Shown here piece by piece: positions 51,905-60,175 of a stretch of 64,000 nt of DNA; position 1 is the stretch's first letter, and the number at the start of each line of letters is the position of its first letter. A program made the position numbers and the translations under genes. The notes beneath the pieces are model-generated. The model searched no databases, was not told the origin of the DNA, and worked only from the letters and a program-made list of their open reading frames with translations. The stretch comes from Nitrosomonas sp. (GTDB taxonomy: Bacteria; Pseudomonadota; Gammaproteobacteria; Burkholderiales; Nitrosomonadaceae). The DNA lies in assembly GCA_019635215.1 (NCBI GenBank), contig JAHBZZ010000002.1, forward strand, positions 186,001 to 250,000, given 5' to 3'.

Positions 51905-54703
51905 CTACTGCACCGGATTCAATTGCGCCGGTGTTAAGCCTCCCCGCCATTCCGCAGGCAAGTGCTGCACCCAGCCATTGTACACATTAGGTACGGCCAG
52001 AATGCCTTGTCCACCGGTTCCCGCCAGGCTGGCAATCTTATCATCGGTCGGCACATCGCCACCTGCGACCAAAGAAATACGCCCGGCTATCGCTGCGTCA
52101 CTGAAATTACCATCTCCATTCGGATCCGGATCAACCACAATCAGTTGATTGGAAAATTTACTCGTGACATACGCGTAATAACCACCACCTGATTTTGCAC
52201 CAAAGTTCGCACCATGGCATCCCGGATCACACGGCAGCATGGCAACAACCTTATCGATCGAAGTATCGACGATAGTAATGGTCCCTCCCGTATTCGCAGT
52301 GACGACAACCCGACCGGTCGGATCCACCGGTGTCTGAATCGGTAAAACTCCGACCGTCACCAGACCATCACCATCACGGTCTTGCAACGTTGTATCACCT
52401 GTTGGACTGATAGGATCATAATCCGCCAGAAGATTGATAGTGGACAGGGGATTGCCATTGAGATCGTAAACGCTCAGGGAATGATCCAGCAGGTTTGCCG
52501 TATAGACCTTATCGATACCCATTCCGATTGCGATCGGATGTGGACCGGCAGGGAAGTTACCACCGGCCGCCGGCCGCGCAATAATTTCACCGGTGTTGCT
52601 ATCGTAGAAACCGGTATCCGAGGTATTGATGTTCGGCGTAATGATTGTTCCCTCCGGTGAAATCCAGTGACCATGCGGATTCGCAGGAATCTGGCCCGGG
52701 CCCTGTGTCGGCATCATGACAAATGGCTCCGTTTCACCGGGTTTGATCCCAATAACGCCATTTTCACCGTTGATAGCAACGGTAATCACATCGCTTTGCG
52801 GAATGGTCATCACATGCGATGGGGTATCGCCCACATGAACATTATGCAGCAAAGCCCCCGTTGCACGATCGATAAATGTCAGCTTGGTATCAAACCACTG
52901 AGTCTGGAAAATGATTGACTGATCCCTATTGGTCCACATGTTATGCGGATGATTCATGTTAATCTGCGGCAAAGCAATCTTGCGCTTGATTTTCCATGTT
53001 GCCGCATCCAATACGGTAATCGTACCTGGTTTGGTTTTACCGGCCGTTTTCTCGAACTGCGTATTGATCCAGACTTCGCCAACGCCCGGCGTCACAGGGT
53101 TAAACAACGCCGCCAGCGTTATATCCTGGCCATAACGTGATTCGAGCACATCTTTCAGCGGCAGATTATCGACTAAATTACCCTGGAGATCCCCGATAGC
53201 CACGTTTACATTAGGATACTTGACATGCCAGGGTTGTGATGAAGTTACGTCCTGCCAGTTTTCCTGAACGGTTGCCACAAAGAACGTACGCAACAGTCTG
53301 GTCGCCAAATCACTGATAGTCGGCAGATTATTGATACCTGTCACAATATCGATCGCCTTACCCAGGTCGAGGCCTGCAGTATTGGGATCGTCGACGATGA
53401 CAGCACCGAACATATAGGGATGAATTTTACAGGTAAACACATACAGCCCCGGGGTTTCCAGCTTGACAATCCCGCCGCCTCGATACGCTTTGGTCTGGTC
53501 CATCGGGATCTGGCGATGATCACCGTGCATTGGATCATTCGCATCGCTCGGCCATAGCAAAGACGTAATCGTATGCACGCCTTTGGTTTCCGACATAATG
53601 AAATGTACGCTGCTGCCCGGTGGAACGATCTCCAGCGAAGGTGAAATCGTGGCGCCCTTGATAGTATCGCTGCGGATACTTCTAAAAAAACTACCCGGTT
53701 CATCCGTGACTTCAAACGTGACCAGACCGGGCTCGCCACCCAGTGAATTCGGCCATATCTTTCCGTTTGGCGATGCGCCGGCTATGCTCTCTCCCGTACC
53801 GCCTGCGGCAGGATCGACCACATGAAACTTGCCGGCCATGCCGGATTCCATATGTGAAACAAGGTGGCAATGATATTGCCAGAAACCTGTTCCGACACCG
53901 CTACCCGCTCTCACTGTGAAAGTATGTGAATCAAATGGAAGATCCAATATCTTGGCGTCGATAATATGAGGCTCTACGCCCAGGGCTTCAAAATTGGTTT
54001 CATCGGGCCAGCGATGTGCATGCAGATGAAACGTATGGGCATGACCAATCGCCAGAATATGAAAACGAACCGTATCATTGAGTAACGCGCCCAGCGTAGG
54101 ATTAGTCCACAGCGGCCTCTGTTTGCCGTTGACAATCTCGGCACCCCAGAACGTTGAACCGATCATGAACATTACATATTCTTTTTTCAAATCGGACTGA
54201 TTCACCGGTATGAGCGTTCCATCGCCTTCAATCAGGCTTTGGACTCTTCCATCCTGCCTGTCAACAATCAATGCACCAAACAAGCCGGTCAGATGGGATC
54301 CCTCATCGCCATAAACATGGGTACCAACTTTGGTTGCATTAAACTGGAAATTGCCGGACTGCCCGGGTGCCAGTTGATTGCCGCTCAATCCGGACAATGC
54401 GGGAACCAGAAAACCCACGCGTGTCTGGGTATTGTTAGTCAATTCGATATTGATGACATCGCCTTCCTTAACAAACAACGTCGGCCCCGGAATAACCGCT
54501 TCCACCGGATAATCAGGCGTCGCCCCTTCGCTGCTGGTATGACTAATCATTTTATAGGCGGGCTGGCCATTGGCGACATACTCTGCCGTCATCACAATAT
54601 TATGGGTTGCAGAAAATGCGAAACCCGACAGCAGCATAGTCACAGTAAAGAACTTCACTGCCGCAAAAGCTTTTATTCTTGATCTTAATCTATTGATATT
54701 CAT
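51905..54703 (-). CDS. Multicopper-oxidase-like protein with plastocyanin-like domain and beta-propeller
   Basis: Start set at 54703 (MNINRLRSRIKAF) because AAGGGAG precedes it; 932 residues with a signal peptide. Cupredoxin domain 1 (about 35-150) has lost both usual HxH motifs: FLVPALSG and HVYGDEGSH stand where HxHG and YHSH should be. Domain 2 keeps motif 3 (HAHTFHLHAH, 221-230) and motif 4 (HCHLVSHMESGM, 278-289), which give type-1 Cu and half a trinuclear site. A third, plastocyanin-like domain has His377 and CKIHPYM (Cys425, His428, Met431). From about 490 a YncE-like beta-propeller follows. It is 30 bp after the complementary oxidase gene. Periplasmic redox role; the substrate is unknown. 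Confidence 0.75.
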   Translation of the reverse strand: MNINRLRSRIKAFAAVKFFTVTMLLSGFAFSATHNIVMTAEYVANGQPAYKMISHTSSEGATPDYPVEAVIPGPTLFVKEGDVINIELTNNTQTRVGFLVPALSGLSGNQLAPGQSGNFQFNATKVGTHVYGDEGSHLTGLFGALIVDRQDGRVQSLIEGDGTLIPVNQSDLKKEYVMFMIGSTFWGAEIVNGKQRPLWTNPTLGALLNDTVRFHILAIGHAHTFHLHAHRWPDETNFEALGVEPHIIDAKILDLPFDSHTFTVRAGSGVGTGFWQYHCHLVSHMESGMAGKFHVVDPAAGGTGESIAGASPNGKIWPNSLGGEPGLVTFEVTDEPGSFFRSIRSDTIKGATISPSLEIVPPGSSVHFIMSETKGVHTITSLLWPSDANDPMHGDHRQIPMDQTKAYRGGGIVKLETPGLYVFTCKIHPYMFGAVIVDDPNTAGLDLGKAIDIVTGINNLPTISDLATRLLRTFFVATVQENWQDVTSSQPWHVKYPNVNVAIGDLQGNLVDNLPLKDVLESRYGQDITLAALFNPVTPGVGEVWINTQFEKTAGKTKPGTITVLDAATWKIKRKIALPQINMNHPHNMWTNRDQSIIFQTQWFDTKLTFIDRATGALLHNVHVGDTPSHVMTIPQSDVITVAINGENGVIGIKPGETEPFVMMPTQGPGQIPANPHGHWISPEGTIITPNINTSDTGFYDSNTGEIIARPAAGGNFPAGPHPIAIGMGIDKVYTANLLDHSLSVYDLNGNPLSTINLLADYDPISPTGDTTLQDRDGDGLVTVGVLPIQTPVDPTGRVVVTANTGGTITIVDTSIDKVVAMLPCDPGCHGANFGAKSGGGYYAYVTSKFSNQLIVVDPDPNGDGNFSDAAIAGRISLVAGGDVPTDDKIASLAGTGGQGILAVPNVYNGWVQHLPAEWRGGLTPAQLNPVQ

Positions 54704-54733
54704 ATTTTCTCCCTTTTTACCCATGCTTTTGAT

Positions 54734-55762
54734 CTATTCACTAACCAGAAATGCGCCACGCATTCCCAGCAGTAGATTATTCAAAGCAGTATCCAGGTAA
54801 ATTGAATTTTGTGTTGCATGGACTGTAAACACATATTTTTCTATTGGCCCCAATGTCTTGGCACTGACCAGTTGATCTGTTCCCGGTTCCGGCCAGTTGT
54901 AACCCGGTAATTCAAACCGGTGGAAATTAGTACCCAGCGCGATGAGATGAAATCTCACATTAGTATTTTTTTGCGCCGTCAGCGCAGGATTGGCGCCGCC
55001 ATAACTTTGCTGACCTGTCGCACGATCGATTTCCGTTCCTGCGAAAGCATCGTCAAACAAATACAACACATAGTCTTTCGCCACCGTATCCAGCGATATC
55101 GTCTGCCGCGAATTGCCACTGCTCATCACGGTCATATTCGAAGCCGGATTGACAATGACGGCGCCATACAACCCTCTGTCTTCCGCGCCGTTATGCGTCA
55201 GCATATTGTGATCGTGATAAGGCCAGGTACCCGCCGTACCGGGCGCCGCTATCCAGCGGTATTTATAGGACATGACAGGAATAGCGCTTTCGTCCTTGAA
55301 ATGATTGATATATTCAAGCGTACCGTCGCTTTCTATGTCGTAATGAACGCCATGTACATGAACGCTGACATGCTCATGCGCCGGCGTTGCGGGATCGAAC
55401 TGATGATAAAGCGTCAGCTCGACTTCGTCGCCTTCTTTAATGACAATGGTTGGACCCGGTATTGTCGGTCCATCGGGATAACGGGCAGTGACGTCTATAG
55501 CGTTACCGCCGTTCAAATCCGAAACAAGATGCTGCCGCATGCGATAAGCATAATAACCGCCATCTATCTTCTCGGCGGCGAACTCTATCTTGTGTAATTC
55601 CTGTGCCTGTACAGGACTGCCTAACAGAAATAACAGTGCACAGGACAGAATCCCAGCAAAACCGCATTTCAATCGCTTCTGCCTGATTAATGAATTATTT
55701 GACCGCTCCCGCAGCAAATAGGTATTGCTTAAAAAAAACGCCTGGCTGATTTTTCTTGCCAT
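54734..55762 (-). CDS. Two-domain multicopper-oxidase-like protein lacking motifs 3 and 4
   Basis: 342 residues. AGGAGGT sits just upstream of the ATG at 55762. Signal peptide with cleavage near residue 53 (SPVQAQ). Domain 1 keeps trinuclear motif 1, HVHGVH (His135, 137, 140), and motif 2, WPYHDHN (His183, 185). Domain 2 has only TNFHRFELPG at 278-287 for motif 3, and at the motif 4 position YLDTALNNLLLGM (322-334): the type-1 Cys and all His are gone, only Met remains. Alone it cannot be a normal oxidase. The missing half is present in the next gene, so a joint copper site is likely. First gene of the pair. Confidence 0.75.
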   Translation of the reverse strand: MARKISQAFFLSNTYLLRERSNNSLIRQKRLKCGFAGILSCALLFLLGSPVQAQELHKIEFAAEKIDGGYYAYRMRQHLVSDLNGGNAIDVTARYPDGPTIPGPTIVIKEGDEVELTLYHQFDPATPAHEHVSVHVHGVHYDIESDGTLEYINHFKDESAIPVMSYKYRWIAAPGTAGTWPYHDHNMLTHNGAEDRGLYGAVIVNPASNMTVMSSGNSRQTISLDTVAKDYVLYLFDDAFAGTEIDRATGQQSYGGANPALTAQKNTNVRFHLIALGTNFHRFELPGYNWPEPGTDQLVSAKTLGPIEKYVFTVHATQNSIYLDTALNNLLLGMRGAFLVSE

Positions 55763-56992: not shown

Positions 56993-59900
56993 TCAGATTG
57001 TTGTTAGGGATTGGTAAATGCGCTGAATTTCCTGACCGGGACTGATACCCAAACGGGAAAGCAGTATATGACGGCAGCGCTGATAAACGGTTATTGCCTC
57101 ACTATGCCTGCCAAGCTGAATGTAGCAATTCATGAGGTGCTGATAGAATATTTCTACGAGAGGTTCGACCTCAATGGCGCCAAGATAGCATGCCGCAGCA
57201 TCTGACCAGTTGTTGTTTTGTTCAAGCATGGCGCCCGATCGTTTGACCAAACCGACATAGCTTGCACGTAACCGGTCACGGGAAGCTACTGCCCAGTACG
57301 ATGTTTCGCCATCTAAAAAACGACCGTGATACCAGTTAAGTGTTCGCTTGAGCAAGACGCTGTCGGTTAAATCTGGCAAATGCGCGATACGATCAAATGC
57401 AATACAATCCACCCATATATAATTTGAGTCAAAGAATAAATGACGGTCTTCCAATCGAATCGCTTGTTCATACTTTAACAATTTGCGCAAACGATGCAGT
57501 GTAGTTCTGAACGCCTGTTCCGCTGCATCACCTCCTGAATCCGGCCACAAGGCGTCAGTCAGCAGATTTTGATTCACTGCACGTCCTCTATAAGCGCATA
57601 AGCATTTTAATAATTCCAGTGGTTTATGCTGAGCTTTCCTCGAGAAGTGAAGCGGCGCATCATTGCAAAGTAAGTCAAAACGGCCAAGTGTATAGACCTT
57701 GATCGGCCAAGGCCAATTCTCGATATCGTACGACTCAGGTTTAATGTCATGATGTTTAATCAAGTTTCGTACATGCTCTATTTCAATTCCAAACTGGAAC
57801 GCGCATGTAAAAATACGTGTCATCACGTGCGGACGCCACCAGTTATTAAGAAAGAGGAAATTGTTTTTGCGACCGATAATCAATCCTTCTTGTAATGAAA
57901 CAAGCGCTCTGCGTTCGTCTCCCTCCTTAAGCCAGGAAAAGGCCTTGACCAGCAGACACTGATGTTCAAGCATCGGATTATTCATTGCATGCGCATACTG
58001 AATCGCAACGTCAAGATGATTTCTCGCCATTTCTGTTTTGCCCATTTCTATCAGTATCTGCGCCAAACCAAACCGGCAGGTCTCACGTAGAAACGGCCTA
58101 CCCGTTTCCTCATGCAGTTTGAGTGCTGTAGATGCATTATCAAACGCTCTGGAATAGTCTGCCCGCAAGAATTCAATCCCGGCTCTTATGTAGTGAGATT
58201 CCGTCAGATCATGTTTGCGTTGCATGCCTAAATTTGACTCAAGTTGATCAAGATAGTCCTGTGCAGCAACAATATTGCCTGCTGACAGCGCACTGTAAGC
58301 GCCGTGCGCCCATAACATACCGTTTAGTATAGAAATACCAGATTCCTGTGCAATCTGGATCGCATCACCAAGCTTTTGTTCGGCAACATGGGGAGATGCT
58401 GCTATGTGCCAGGCGTAACCACACTCTATGTTTTTCCAAAGAATGCGTAGCAGCGGCGGCATTGTGGCCTTATTAACGAGAGGCCCAACTTCATTGATGA
58501 TTCGACGCATTTTGCCGGTGTCACCGCGCCACAAAGGAAGAAATATGAACGTACAAACCGCGGCCACCCGCAGAGATGGATCAGCAATTGATCGCAATAC
58601 ACTTTCGAAACGTGCTTCAAGTATTTCTAATAGTGGATGATGAGGGGCCGCGAATATTAAACCCAGCAGGTTGGTAAATACTCTAACTTCAACATCAAAA
58701 GAAGGGAAATCGCCATAATGTTCCAGCAGTTCTTGTAGTCGTTCTCCCCATTTAATAATTGGCGTTATATTATCTTCAGCGTAAAGATAAGCTTCCATCA
58801 TGGCACCACACACCAGGAATAAACCGGCACTGTCATCCGCTGCCAGGAATCCCGTGTAGGCGTGCTCCAAATCCGATCTGGCCGCATGGATATTGAACAG
58901 TATGCAGCTAACACCACGCCAATAAAATAACCATGAGGTACTCTTAATCATTACCTCGGGTAACAGGCCGATCCACCGCTGTAGCAATTGATGACGCCCC
59001 TGCACAAGCAGAATCGGCGCATAACTGTTGATCAGCCGAATCAAGTCACTCCACGCCTGTGCTTTCGCATATAGTTCCGCAGCGGTCTCGGAGTCGCCAT
59101 TGCTCTCCATCAGGATTGCCCCTAACCGTTGCATATCATGCAGTTCTCTCGTAGAAAAATGACTGTTAGTCTGCTCAAGCAGGAATTCGCGAAACAACGC
59201 ATGGTATCGATAACTCATTTCTCCACTCGTGCGTCGGTCAATAAATAACTGCTGACGATAAAGATAATCAAGCAGCTCTTTTGCCCGTGGAACCCCGCTT
59301 ATTTCGGCAGCCATTTTCAGCGTCATATATGGAAGATTAGCGGTGCGCATCAGAAAAATGCGCATATCCTCTTGTAAGTGCTGAAAGATTTGACCGGCAA
59401 AATAACCAAAAATTAATTCCATTGATGCGGGTTTGGAAGCAGAATCTAATATGCCGGTGCGCATATAATAATCCATCGTCAGAACGACTCCCGCAGCCCA
59501 TCCATTGGTTCTGTCTTGCAACGATTGTATGATCATCTCGTCGCACATCTGATGGTTTACCGCAACCAGTGCCCTTGTTTCCTCGAGTGTCAGGCGTAGA
59601 TATTCCCAGTCTATTTTTCCAATCAGGTTATTGGCTACTGCTCTCGCAAAACAGGGCGGCGGATCAGTGCGGCTGATTATAAGTAAAGCAATGTCGACAG
59701 GAAGCTCCTGTAGCGCCGCCAGAACAATAGCGTGAAGAGTCGACTCTGCAATAACCTCCTGGTAGTTATCCATTATTATGATTATATTTTCTGGCAAGGA
59801 AGCAAAAAGCTTGCGAAAAAAACGACGTGCGAATCCTGACAAATCAGTCAGATATTCAGGTGTTAACAGAGGCAATTCAAGCTGTTTCCGGCCAGCAGCT

Positions 59901-60175
59901 TTTCGTCCGGCCAATCCAAGATAGTAAAAAAAAGACGCGGCATCATTATCATCGCTATCTACTTGATACCATATAGCCGGTATGCCGCGGGCTTTAATAT
60001 AACTAGCCACAAGAGCTGTTTTTCCTGCGCCTGGCGGACTTGCGATCCAGACAACCGAGCGATTGGCCCGCTCTTCATCCAGCAATGCAAACAAGCGATG
60101 ACGATCAATGACATTGAAAAGCCTTGGTTGACTCAACTTGGCCGGTATGCGCGGTTTATTGGTAATGTTACTCAT
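56993..60175 (-). CDS. STAND ATPase transcription activator with C-terminal wHTH-BTAD (SARP-type)
   Basis: 1060 residues. N-terminal MalT-like NTPase: Walker A ASPPGAGKT (45-53), Walker B NIIIIMDNYQEV near 135, and TNGWAAGVVL, the usual sensor region. A long TPR-like helical middle covers about 340-800. The C-terminus carries an OmpR-type winged helix (KVYTLGRFDLLCNDAPL, then LLKCLCAYRGRAVNQNLL, about 810-900) and a bacterial transcriptional activation domain ending HSEAITVYQRCRHILLSRLG. SARPs usually have this pair at the N-terminus; here it is C-terminal, replacing the LuxR HTH of MalT. It likely senses a small molecule and activates the neighbouring oxidase genes and itself (see the heptamer repeats). 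Confidence 0.88.
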   Translation of the reverse strand: MSNITNKPRIPAKLSQPRLFNVIDRHRLFALLDEERANRSVVWIASPPGAGKTALVASYIKARGIPAIWYQVDSDDNDAASFFYYLGLAGRKAAGRKQLELPLLTPEYLTDLSGFARRFFRKLFASLPENIIIIMDNYQEVIAESTLHAIVLAALQELPVDIALLIISRTDPPPCFARAVANNLIGKIDWEYLRLTLEETRALVAVNHQMCDEMIIQSLQDRTNGWAAGVVLTMDYYMRTGILDSASKPASMELIFGYFAGQIFQHLQEDMRIFLMRTANLPYMTLKMAAEISGVPRAKELLDYLYRQQLFIDRRTSGEMSYRYHALFREFLLEQTNSHFSTRELHDMQRLGAILMESNGDSETAAELYAKAQAWSDLIRLINSYAPILLVQGRHQLLQRWIGLLPEVMIKSTSWLFYWRGVSCILFNIHAARSDLEHAYTGFLAADDSAGLFLVCGAMMEAYLYAEDNITPIIKWGERLQELLEHYGDFPSFDVEVRVFTNLLGLIFAAPHHPLLEILEARFESVLRSIADPSLRVAAVCTFIFLPLWRGDTGKMRRIINEVGPLVNKATMPPLLRILWKNIECGYAWHIAASPHVAEQKLGDAIQIAQESGISILNGMLWAHGAYSALSAGNIVAAQDYLDQLESNLGMQRKHDLTESHYIRAGIEFLRADYSRAFDNASTALKLHEETGRPFLRETCRFGLAQILIEMGKTEMARNHLDVAIQYAHAMNNPMLEHQCLLVKAFSWLKEGDERRALVSLQEGLIIGRKNNFLFLNNWWRPHVMTRIFTCAFQFGIEIEHVRNLIKHHDIKPESYDIENWPWPIKVYTLGRFDLLCNDAPLHFSRKAQHKPLELLKCLCAYRGRAVNQNLLTDALWPDSGGDAAEQAFRTTLHRLRKLLKYEQAIRLEDRHLFFDSNYIWVDCIAFDRIAHLPDLTDSVLLKRTLNWYHGRFLDGETSYWAVASRDRLRASYVGLVKRSGAMLEQNNNWSDAAACYLGAIEVEPLVEIFYQHLMNCYIQLGRHSEAITVYQRCRHILLSRLGISPGQEIQRIYQSLTTI

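Follow-up and report, generated by a model that had tools for sequence, protein, structure and literature searches.

A putative two-domain multicopper oxidase of Nitrosomonas with its trinuclear copper ligands divided between two paralogous genes

Two-domain laccases are described, in the available parts of two reports, as homotrimers in which the type-2/type-3 copper cluster lies between domain 1 and domain 2 of neighboring molecules (PMC6650940, PMC13151041). The current study concerns two adjacent genes, here termed B and A, in a 64,000-nucleotide stretch of DNA from Nitrosomonas sp. (assembly GCA_019635215.1, contig JAHBZZ010000002.1, positions 186,001 to 250,000), which we refer to as the window. 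Like the type-B Streptomyces small laccases SLAC, Ssl1 and SgfSL as well as CjMCO, the pair has two cupredoxin domains and a type-1 copper site in domain 2 (in A). However, the known type-B oxidases are homotrimers with all eight trinuclear His encoded by one gene, whereas here they are divided over two genes, and unlike the known enzymes, A carries a third cupredoxin and a propeller as well. Since the trinuclear site of known two-domain trimers is formed between subunits, B and A together can restore a site, and we estimate a probability of roughly three in four that they are obligate subunits of a single exported type-B two-domain multicopper oxidase, which would have been made by complementary degeneration.

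Division of the copper ligands between B and A

To count ligands, 56 distinct B rows and 56 distinct A rows were aligned with an unsplit relative. Sources of the rows were the genus itself and two metagenome-assembled genomes (MAGs), one of Chromatiales and one of Pseudomonadales; removal of 11 fragments contained in other sequences reduced the A set from 67 to 56. In B, all four trinuclear His of domain 1 are invariant (56/56), while three of its four domain-2 trinuclear columns have His in no row and the fourth has it in a single row. The type-1 Cys column of B is occupied by Asp in 54 rows, His in one and Asn in one. The pattern in A is the opposite: neither of the two motif-1 columns has His in any of the 56 rows, and of the two motif-2 columns, the first is aligned with a His in 34/56 and the second in no row. 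All 56 rows have a complete motif 3, and all but a frame-broken copy (L076) have a complete motif 4 (55/56). The original prediction, which held that the upstream protein keeps motifs 1 and 2 and one motif-3 His but has lost motif 4, and that the downstream protein has lost the first two motifs but keeps the last two, is therefore borne out across both sets of rows. It requires only refinement, in that B also retains the first motif-3 His and the type-1 Met, each in 55/56 rows, along with its Asp-for-Cys replacement. This reciprocal loss is more than chance.

Two features of this arrangement bear on the type of oxidase. Firstly, neither protein of the pair has all eight trinuclear His; four are in B and four in A, and the set is complete only as a pair. 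Secondly, A has its type-1 site in domain 2, as its type-1 set (H230, C286, H291, M296) is kept in 55-56/56 rows, while B, having neither the type-1 Cys nor the second His, does not make up a type-1 site alone. With the first motif-3 His and the Met still in place, domain 2 of B may bind a different metal or no metal at all, and the conservation of the Asp, the His and the Met within this domain (54761-54928) suggests a role of some kind.

The complementarity extends beyond the ligands. Using 12 unsplit relatives as reference, the mean identity of domain 1 is 49.0% for B and 27.0% for A, and that of domain 2 is 31.8% for B and 47.5% for A. Among the positions invariant in these relatives (76 per domain), 48 of those in domain 1 are kept by B and 16 by A, against 24 by B and 42 by A in domain 2 (Fisher p = 1e-5, with positions that are not strictly independent). 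In comparisons with L034 and L035, the ratio of nonsynonymous to synonymous substitution rates (dN/dS) is 0.035-0.097 in every domain, the ligand-less domains included, which indicates purifying selection. Ordinary pseudogene decay was rejected because of these values.

The two genes lie on the minus strand in the order B, then A (Table 1). For A, a start at 54703 (932 aa) is likelier than the longer open reading frame (ORF) start at 54724, with GGGAG seen by eye just upstream, and the gap between the genes would accordingly be 30 nucleotides instead of 9. By eye, the N-termini of both proteins resemble Sec signal peptides. Cu-oxidase_3 is the Pfam domain found above cutoff in both A and B, and Cu-oxidase_2 is found in A only. 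Two-domain small laccases are the top PDB matches for both proteins, with A matched over both domains and B best over domain 1. Domain 3 of A is a plastocyanin-like cupredoxin, followed by a YVTN-type beta-propeller. Neither protein reaches the curated-model cutoff for the copper nitrite reductase NirK (TIGR02376, cutoff 296.3; A 35.1 bits, B 15.3 bits) or for the CopA copper-resistance oxidases (TIGR01480, cutoff 478.95; A 46.9 bits, B 34.8 bits). With three cupredoxins plus a propeller in A and two cupredoxins in B, neither is a six-domain oxidase with all six in one chain.

Table 1. Coordinates of the B-A pair and its copper-ligand motifs in the window
Feature	Position	Strand	Conservation or basis
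Gene B, 342 aa: signal peptide (by eye) and two-domain multicopper oxidase; domain-1 half-site live, domain-2 site lost	54734..55762	(-)	
B motif 1 HVHGVH (residues 135-140; H135, H137)	55343..55360	(-)	His in 56/56 rows
B motif 2 YHDHN (residues 182-186; H183, H185)	55205..55219	(-)	His in 56/56 rows
B motif-3 remnant NFHRFELPGYNW: first His kept, two trinuclear His lost	54893..54928	(-)	alignment
B motif-4 remnant IYLDTALNNLLLGM: Cys to Asp, Met kept	54761..54802	(-)	Asp 54/56, Met 55/56
Gene A ORF (939 aa), encoding two oxidase domains, a third cupredoxin and a beta-propeller	51905..54724	(-)	
A lost motif 1: GFLVPALSG in its place	54389-54415	(-)	alignment
A lost motif 2: HVYGDEG in its place	54299..54319	(-)	alignment
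A motif 3 HTFHLHAHRW (type-1 His 230; trinuclear His 233, 235)	54008..54037	(-)	56/56 rows
A motif 4 WQYHCHLVSHMESGM (trinuclear His 285, 287; type-1 Cys286, His291, Met296)	53837..53881	(-)	55/56 rows
Third cupredoxin of A, full blue-copper set H384, C432, H435, M438	53360..53737, borders approximate	(-)	61/61 rows
Beta-propeller of A: invariant His H594, H637, H684, H686, H837; CxxxCH motif	51905..53359, start approximate	(-)	
Propeller His sites	52934-52957, 52805-52822, 52664-52681, 52211-52234	(-)	47 rows

Co-occurrence of B and A, and the unsplit relatives of the pair

The distribution of the two genes was surveyed in 85 Nitrosomonas genomes, with E <= 1e-30 for B and E <= 1e-25 for the oxidase part of A. 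Each was found in 61/85 genomes, and their co-occurrence, which had been proposed as a check on the pairing, is close to complete: 60 genomes encode both and 23 neither, leaving two exceptions. In one of these (G075), only a broken A fragment with stops is present. The other (G011) has only B, and no intact gene was otherwise found alone in the genus. Of the 60 genomes having both, 58 carry as many copies of B as of A, and in six of these (G002, G023, G061, G070, G078, G091) each gene is present two or three times; the exceptions are G028, with two B and one A, and G063, where A lies in pieces on two contigs. The main B of G028 is missing its N-terminal third. G003, in which B and A are on separate contigs, was scored as co-occurrence and not as adjacency. 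In genome G062, matching genes form at least two closely spaced pairs, on contigs C29 and C52.

A lies downstream of B on the same strand at a distance of -20 to +47 nucleotides in 53 of the 56 distinct B rows, the remaining three being an overlapping ORF call (L069), the case of G011, in which A is truncated, and a frameshifted pair (L077), both genes of which have frame breaks. Over 53 pairs, the pairwise distances among B correlate with those among A (r = 0.92; the highest value reached by permutation was 0.20). Tandem B-A-B-A arrays are present on two distinct contigs (L015, which shares its contig with L078, and L029), and within L029 and L078 the two B are 51-52% identical and the two A oxidase regions 60-61%. 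Two MAGs with a classification outside Nitrosomonas (L023, L027) likewise have B and A together. As B and A are nearly always encoded together, the enzyme probably works only once both proteins have assembled.

The nearest complete relatives of the pair are single genes, encoded by a Methylocystis rosea plasmid (L063), by genome G130 (L098) and by members of the family of genome G357 (L099-L108), the last in 10 of 121 genomes sampled from that family. All four motifs are present in 12/12 distinct unsplit loci, 11 of which come from methanotrophs, and identity to B and A is about 41-48%. In each of the 12 loci, the oxidase is followed by a cupredoxin-propeller reading frame, which in most is cut by the end of the locus. 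This is a separate gene, homologous to the C-terminal part of A, to which it is fused in Nitrosomonas. Class- and phylum-wide samples, in which at most five candidates per genome were scored, provide lower bounds: outside Nitrosomonas, the unsplit form occurs in at least two of 369 class-sampled genomes (G130, G357), and no further example was found among 398 phylum-sampled genomes with up to five candidates scored in each. PF02461 (AmoA/PmoA) is matched in all ten of the G357-family genomes (only partly in G522), which are methanotroph-like on this basis, while G130 has no PF02461 match. There is also none in the near-complete Nitrosomonas assembly of the window, perhaps because multi-copy operons were lost in assembly. 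The Methylocystis strain carrying L063 is a methanotroph. Its oxidase and propeller genes sit on a mobilizable plasmid, and the L098 pair, on an 11-kb contig of G130, is about 90% identical to them, a likeness that suggests recent transfer.

A maximum-likelihood tree was built by a quick method from 12 unsplit rows, 54 B rows, 56 A rows and an outgroup of 6. In this tree, A, B and the unsplit form each make up one side of a branch, with SH-aLRT values of 100, 99 and 99. Duplication could have occurred either before or after the split from the methanotroph form.

Two observations concern gene context and expression. Upstream of the pair, the window encodes a MalT-like ATPase/BTAD regulator (56993-60175), and regulators 27-28% identical to it adjoin the pair in L021, L022 and L024; none was found in L013 and L014, the loci with the closest B-A relatives. 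Separately, two N. europaea multicopper oxidase genes are induced almost equally late in phage infection (log2 6.16 and 6.14, about 70-fold), according to the available part of one study (PMC13356812). These may be the B-A pair, but the searched main text gives no locus tags for them and genome G062 carries another close pair, on C52.

A probable shared copper site and its alternatives

Several kinds of evolutionary evidence support the split oxidase of the original prediction, of which we infer the physical assembly and joint catalysis. Under this reading, the gene for a homotrimeric two-domain oxidase would have been duplicated, with the B copy retaining the domain-1 face and its four His while losing the domain-2 site, and the A copy retaining domain 2 with its four His and type-1 copper while losing the domain-1 site. 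A would then have fused to the neighboring cupredoxin-propeller gene. In the resulting mixed ring, domain 1 of B would face domain 2 of A, and the two would jointly bind the trinuclear cluster that reduces O2 to water. That interface would bring together the full set of eight trinuclear His, next to the type-1 site of A; the interface between B domain 2 and A domain 1 would have no conserved His set, and A-A and B-B interfaces would have four His each. From these counts, a three-membered mixed ring, whether A2B or AB2, would hold exactly one complete site.

Electrons presumably enter via A, probably donated at the propeller by a substrate or redox partner, and would pass from the blue copper of the third domain to the type-1 copper of domain 2 and on to the shared cluster. 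It is plausible that the third cupredoxin, the ligand set of which is complete in all 61 rows, serves as an electron wire. In the propeller, the five His listed in Table 1 are the only invariant ones outside the cupredoxin over 47 rows and are located at or near the strand starts of successive repeats, and at least 58 of the 60 aligned rows retain an intact CxxxCH motif (C832, C836, H837). The invariant His and CxxxCH suggest a metal or heme center as a possible point of electron entry. The Foldseek neighbors of the propeller include YVTN, YncE, NirF and cytochrome cd1 propellers. Many Nitrosomonas genomes also encode a stand-alone cupredoxin-propeller paralog of about 600-640 aa, 52-57% identical to the C-terminal part of A (e.g., L085 7067-8890 and L086 7199-9046), including genomes that have no B-A pair (G016, G009, G022, G074). 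Taken as a whole, the fuller account is likely, if slightly less so than the pairing itself: a natural obligate hetero-oligomer with a trinuclear site built from two paralogs that are inactive halves, derived by complementary degeneration of a homotrimer, in which the fused cupredoxin and His-rich propeller would feed in electrons from some substrate in these ammonia oxidizers. The export (judged by eye), stoichiometry, copper content, activity, electron path and substrate of such an enzyme are likewise matters that we infer.

A linked B-A chain was modeled from the native sequence, with intervening stops read as Gly and an alignment of 60 rows as input, which was possible because the window and 14 relatives have both genes in one reading frame. 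AlphaFold returned a 748-residue model with a mean predicted local distance difference test score (pLDDT) of 81.1 and a predicted template modeling score (pTM) of 0.83, more than we would expect from a random placement of B and A. In Foldseek comparisons, the model has a TMq of 0.27-0.28 with small-laccase chains and 0.24-0.36 with three-domain laccases.

A number of points weigh against the shared-site reading. The evidence for a complex of A and B is indirect. The modeled chain is a poor match to ceruloplasmin (TMq 0.28, root-mean-square deviation about 21 A), so the predicted arrangement is not clearly ring-like. If the enzyme is a trimer, a mixed ring is limited to one complete site. The G011 assembly has kept B despite a deletion of the oxidase part of A between signal peptide and motif 4, and G028 has an extra truncated B with no neighboring A. 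The correlation of B and A distances is a co-inheritance that shared species history would produce as well, and the tree is compatible with more than one order of separation of A, B and the unsplit group.

The alternative that survives best, albeit an improbable one, is that there is no shared site. A would be an electron-transfer protein with two blue coppers and a propeller, and B a separate copper binder whose four His make up a mono- or dinuclear site, for example in copper handling. Adjacency alone does not prove contact, and A does have complete type-1 sets in both domain 2 and the third cupredoxin. However, an electron-transfer protein would have no reason to retain all four domain-2 trinuclear His, as A does in 55-56/56 rows, nor does a separate copper binder account for B retaining exactly the four domain-1 His together with the neighboring domain-1 positions. 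Somewhat more doubtful still is a role for B as a structural or chaperone paralog that stabilizes A or loads its copper, with the cluster either left incomplete or completed by a different domain-1 donor. The genome does encode other multicopper oxidase genes, and small non-oxidase subunits raise the stability of fungal laccase-like enzymes, as stated in the available part of one source (PMC10741624), but a purely structural role would not need four invariant His in B, and the examined loci show no neighborhood link between A and any other multicopper oxidase gene. Lastly, despite a few broken copies (L077, L074, L111/L112), it is extremely improbable that sequencing error, misassembly or two pseudogenes account for a pattern common to 56 + 56 distinct rows from many assemblies, named isolates included, under the purifying selection described above.

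Comparison with known systems

If the shared-site reading is correct, B and A would provide a clean example from nature in which duplication has split a single intersubunit active site over two genes, with each copy locked to the other. The persistence of an unsplit form in methanotrophs allows comparison, and complementary degeneration would be testable at a single catalytic site. The distribution also points to an uncharacterized copper oxidase with a cupredoxin-propeller partner in 60/85 Nitrosomonas genomes as well as in genomes bearing particulate methane monooxygenase (pMMO). Family models label both genes as multicopper oxidase domains, even though neither protein has a complete site. 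The novel aspect would be the division of the active site of a type-B two-domain oxidase between paralogous genes. Judged by titles and the beginnings of abstracts, literature searches restricted to open-licence papers listed no description of such a split multicopper oxidase pair, and no functional description of the unsplit oxidase and its propeller was found in these searches.

The nearest complete relative, the unsplit oxidase of methanotrophs (L063, L099-L108) and G130 (L098), differs from the pair in having all four motifs in one protein and its propeller encoded by a separate gene. Ceruloplasmin and MnxG, as described in the available part of one report (PMC3600357), likewise consist of duplicated domains and have lost some of their copper sites, with one trinuclear site left. 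In those proteins, however, the loss occurred inside one chain, whereas in B-A it is spread over two. The heterodimeric fungal laccases, Pleurotus POXA3 and NLAC, also consist of two different subunits (PMC10741624, PMC3129051), but in the portions of these sources available to us, the partner is a small protein of unknown function and not a paralogous half-oxidase, and the large subunit is described as the laccase itself. The same route from homomer to heteromer is described for yeast paralogs that form heteromers following duplication of a homomer, in the available part of one study (PMC6711710). Unlike those heteromers, the B-A interface would itself carry the catalytic site, with each copy having lost the opposite half.

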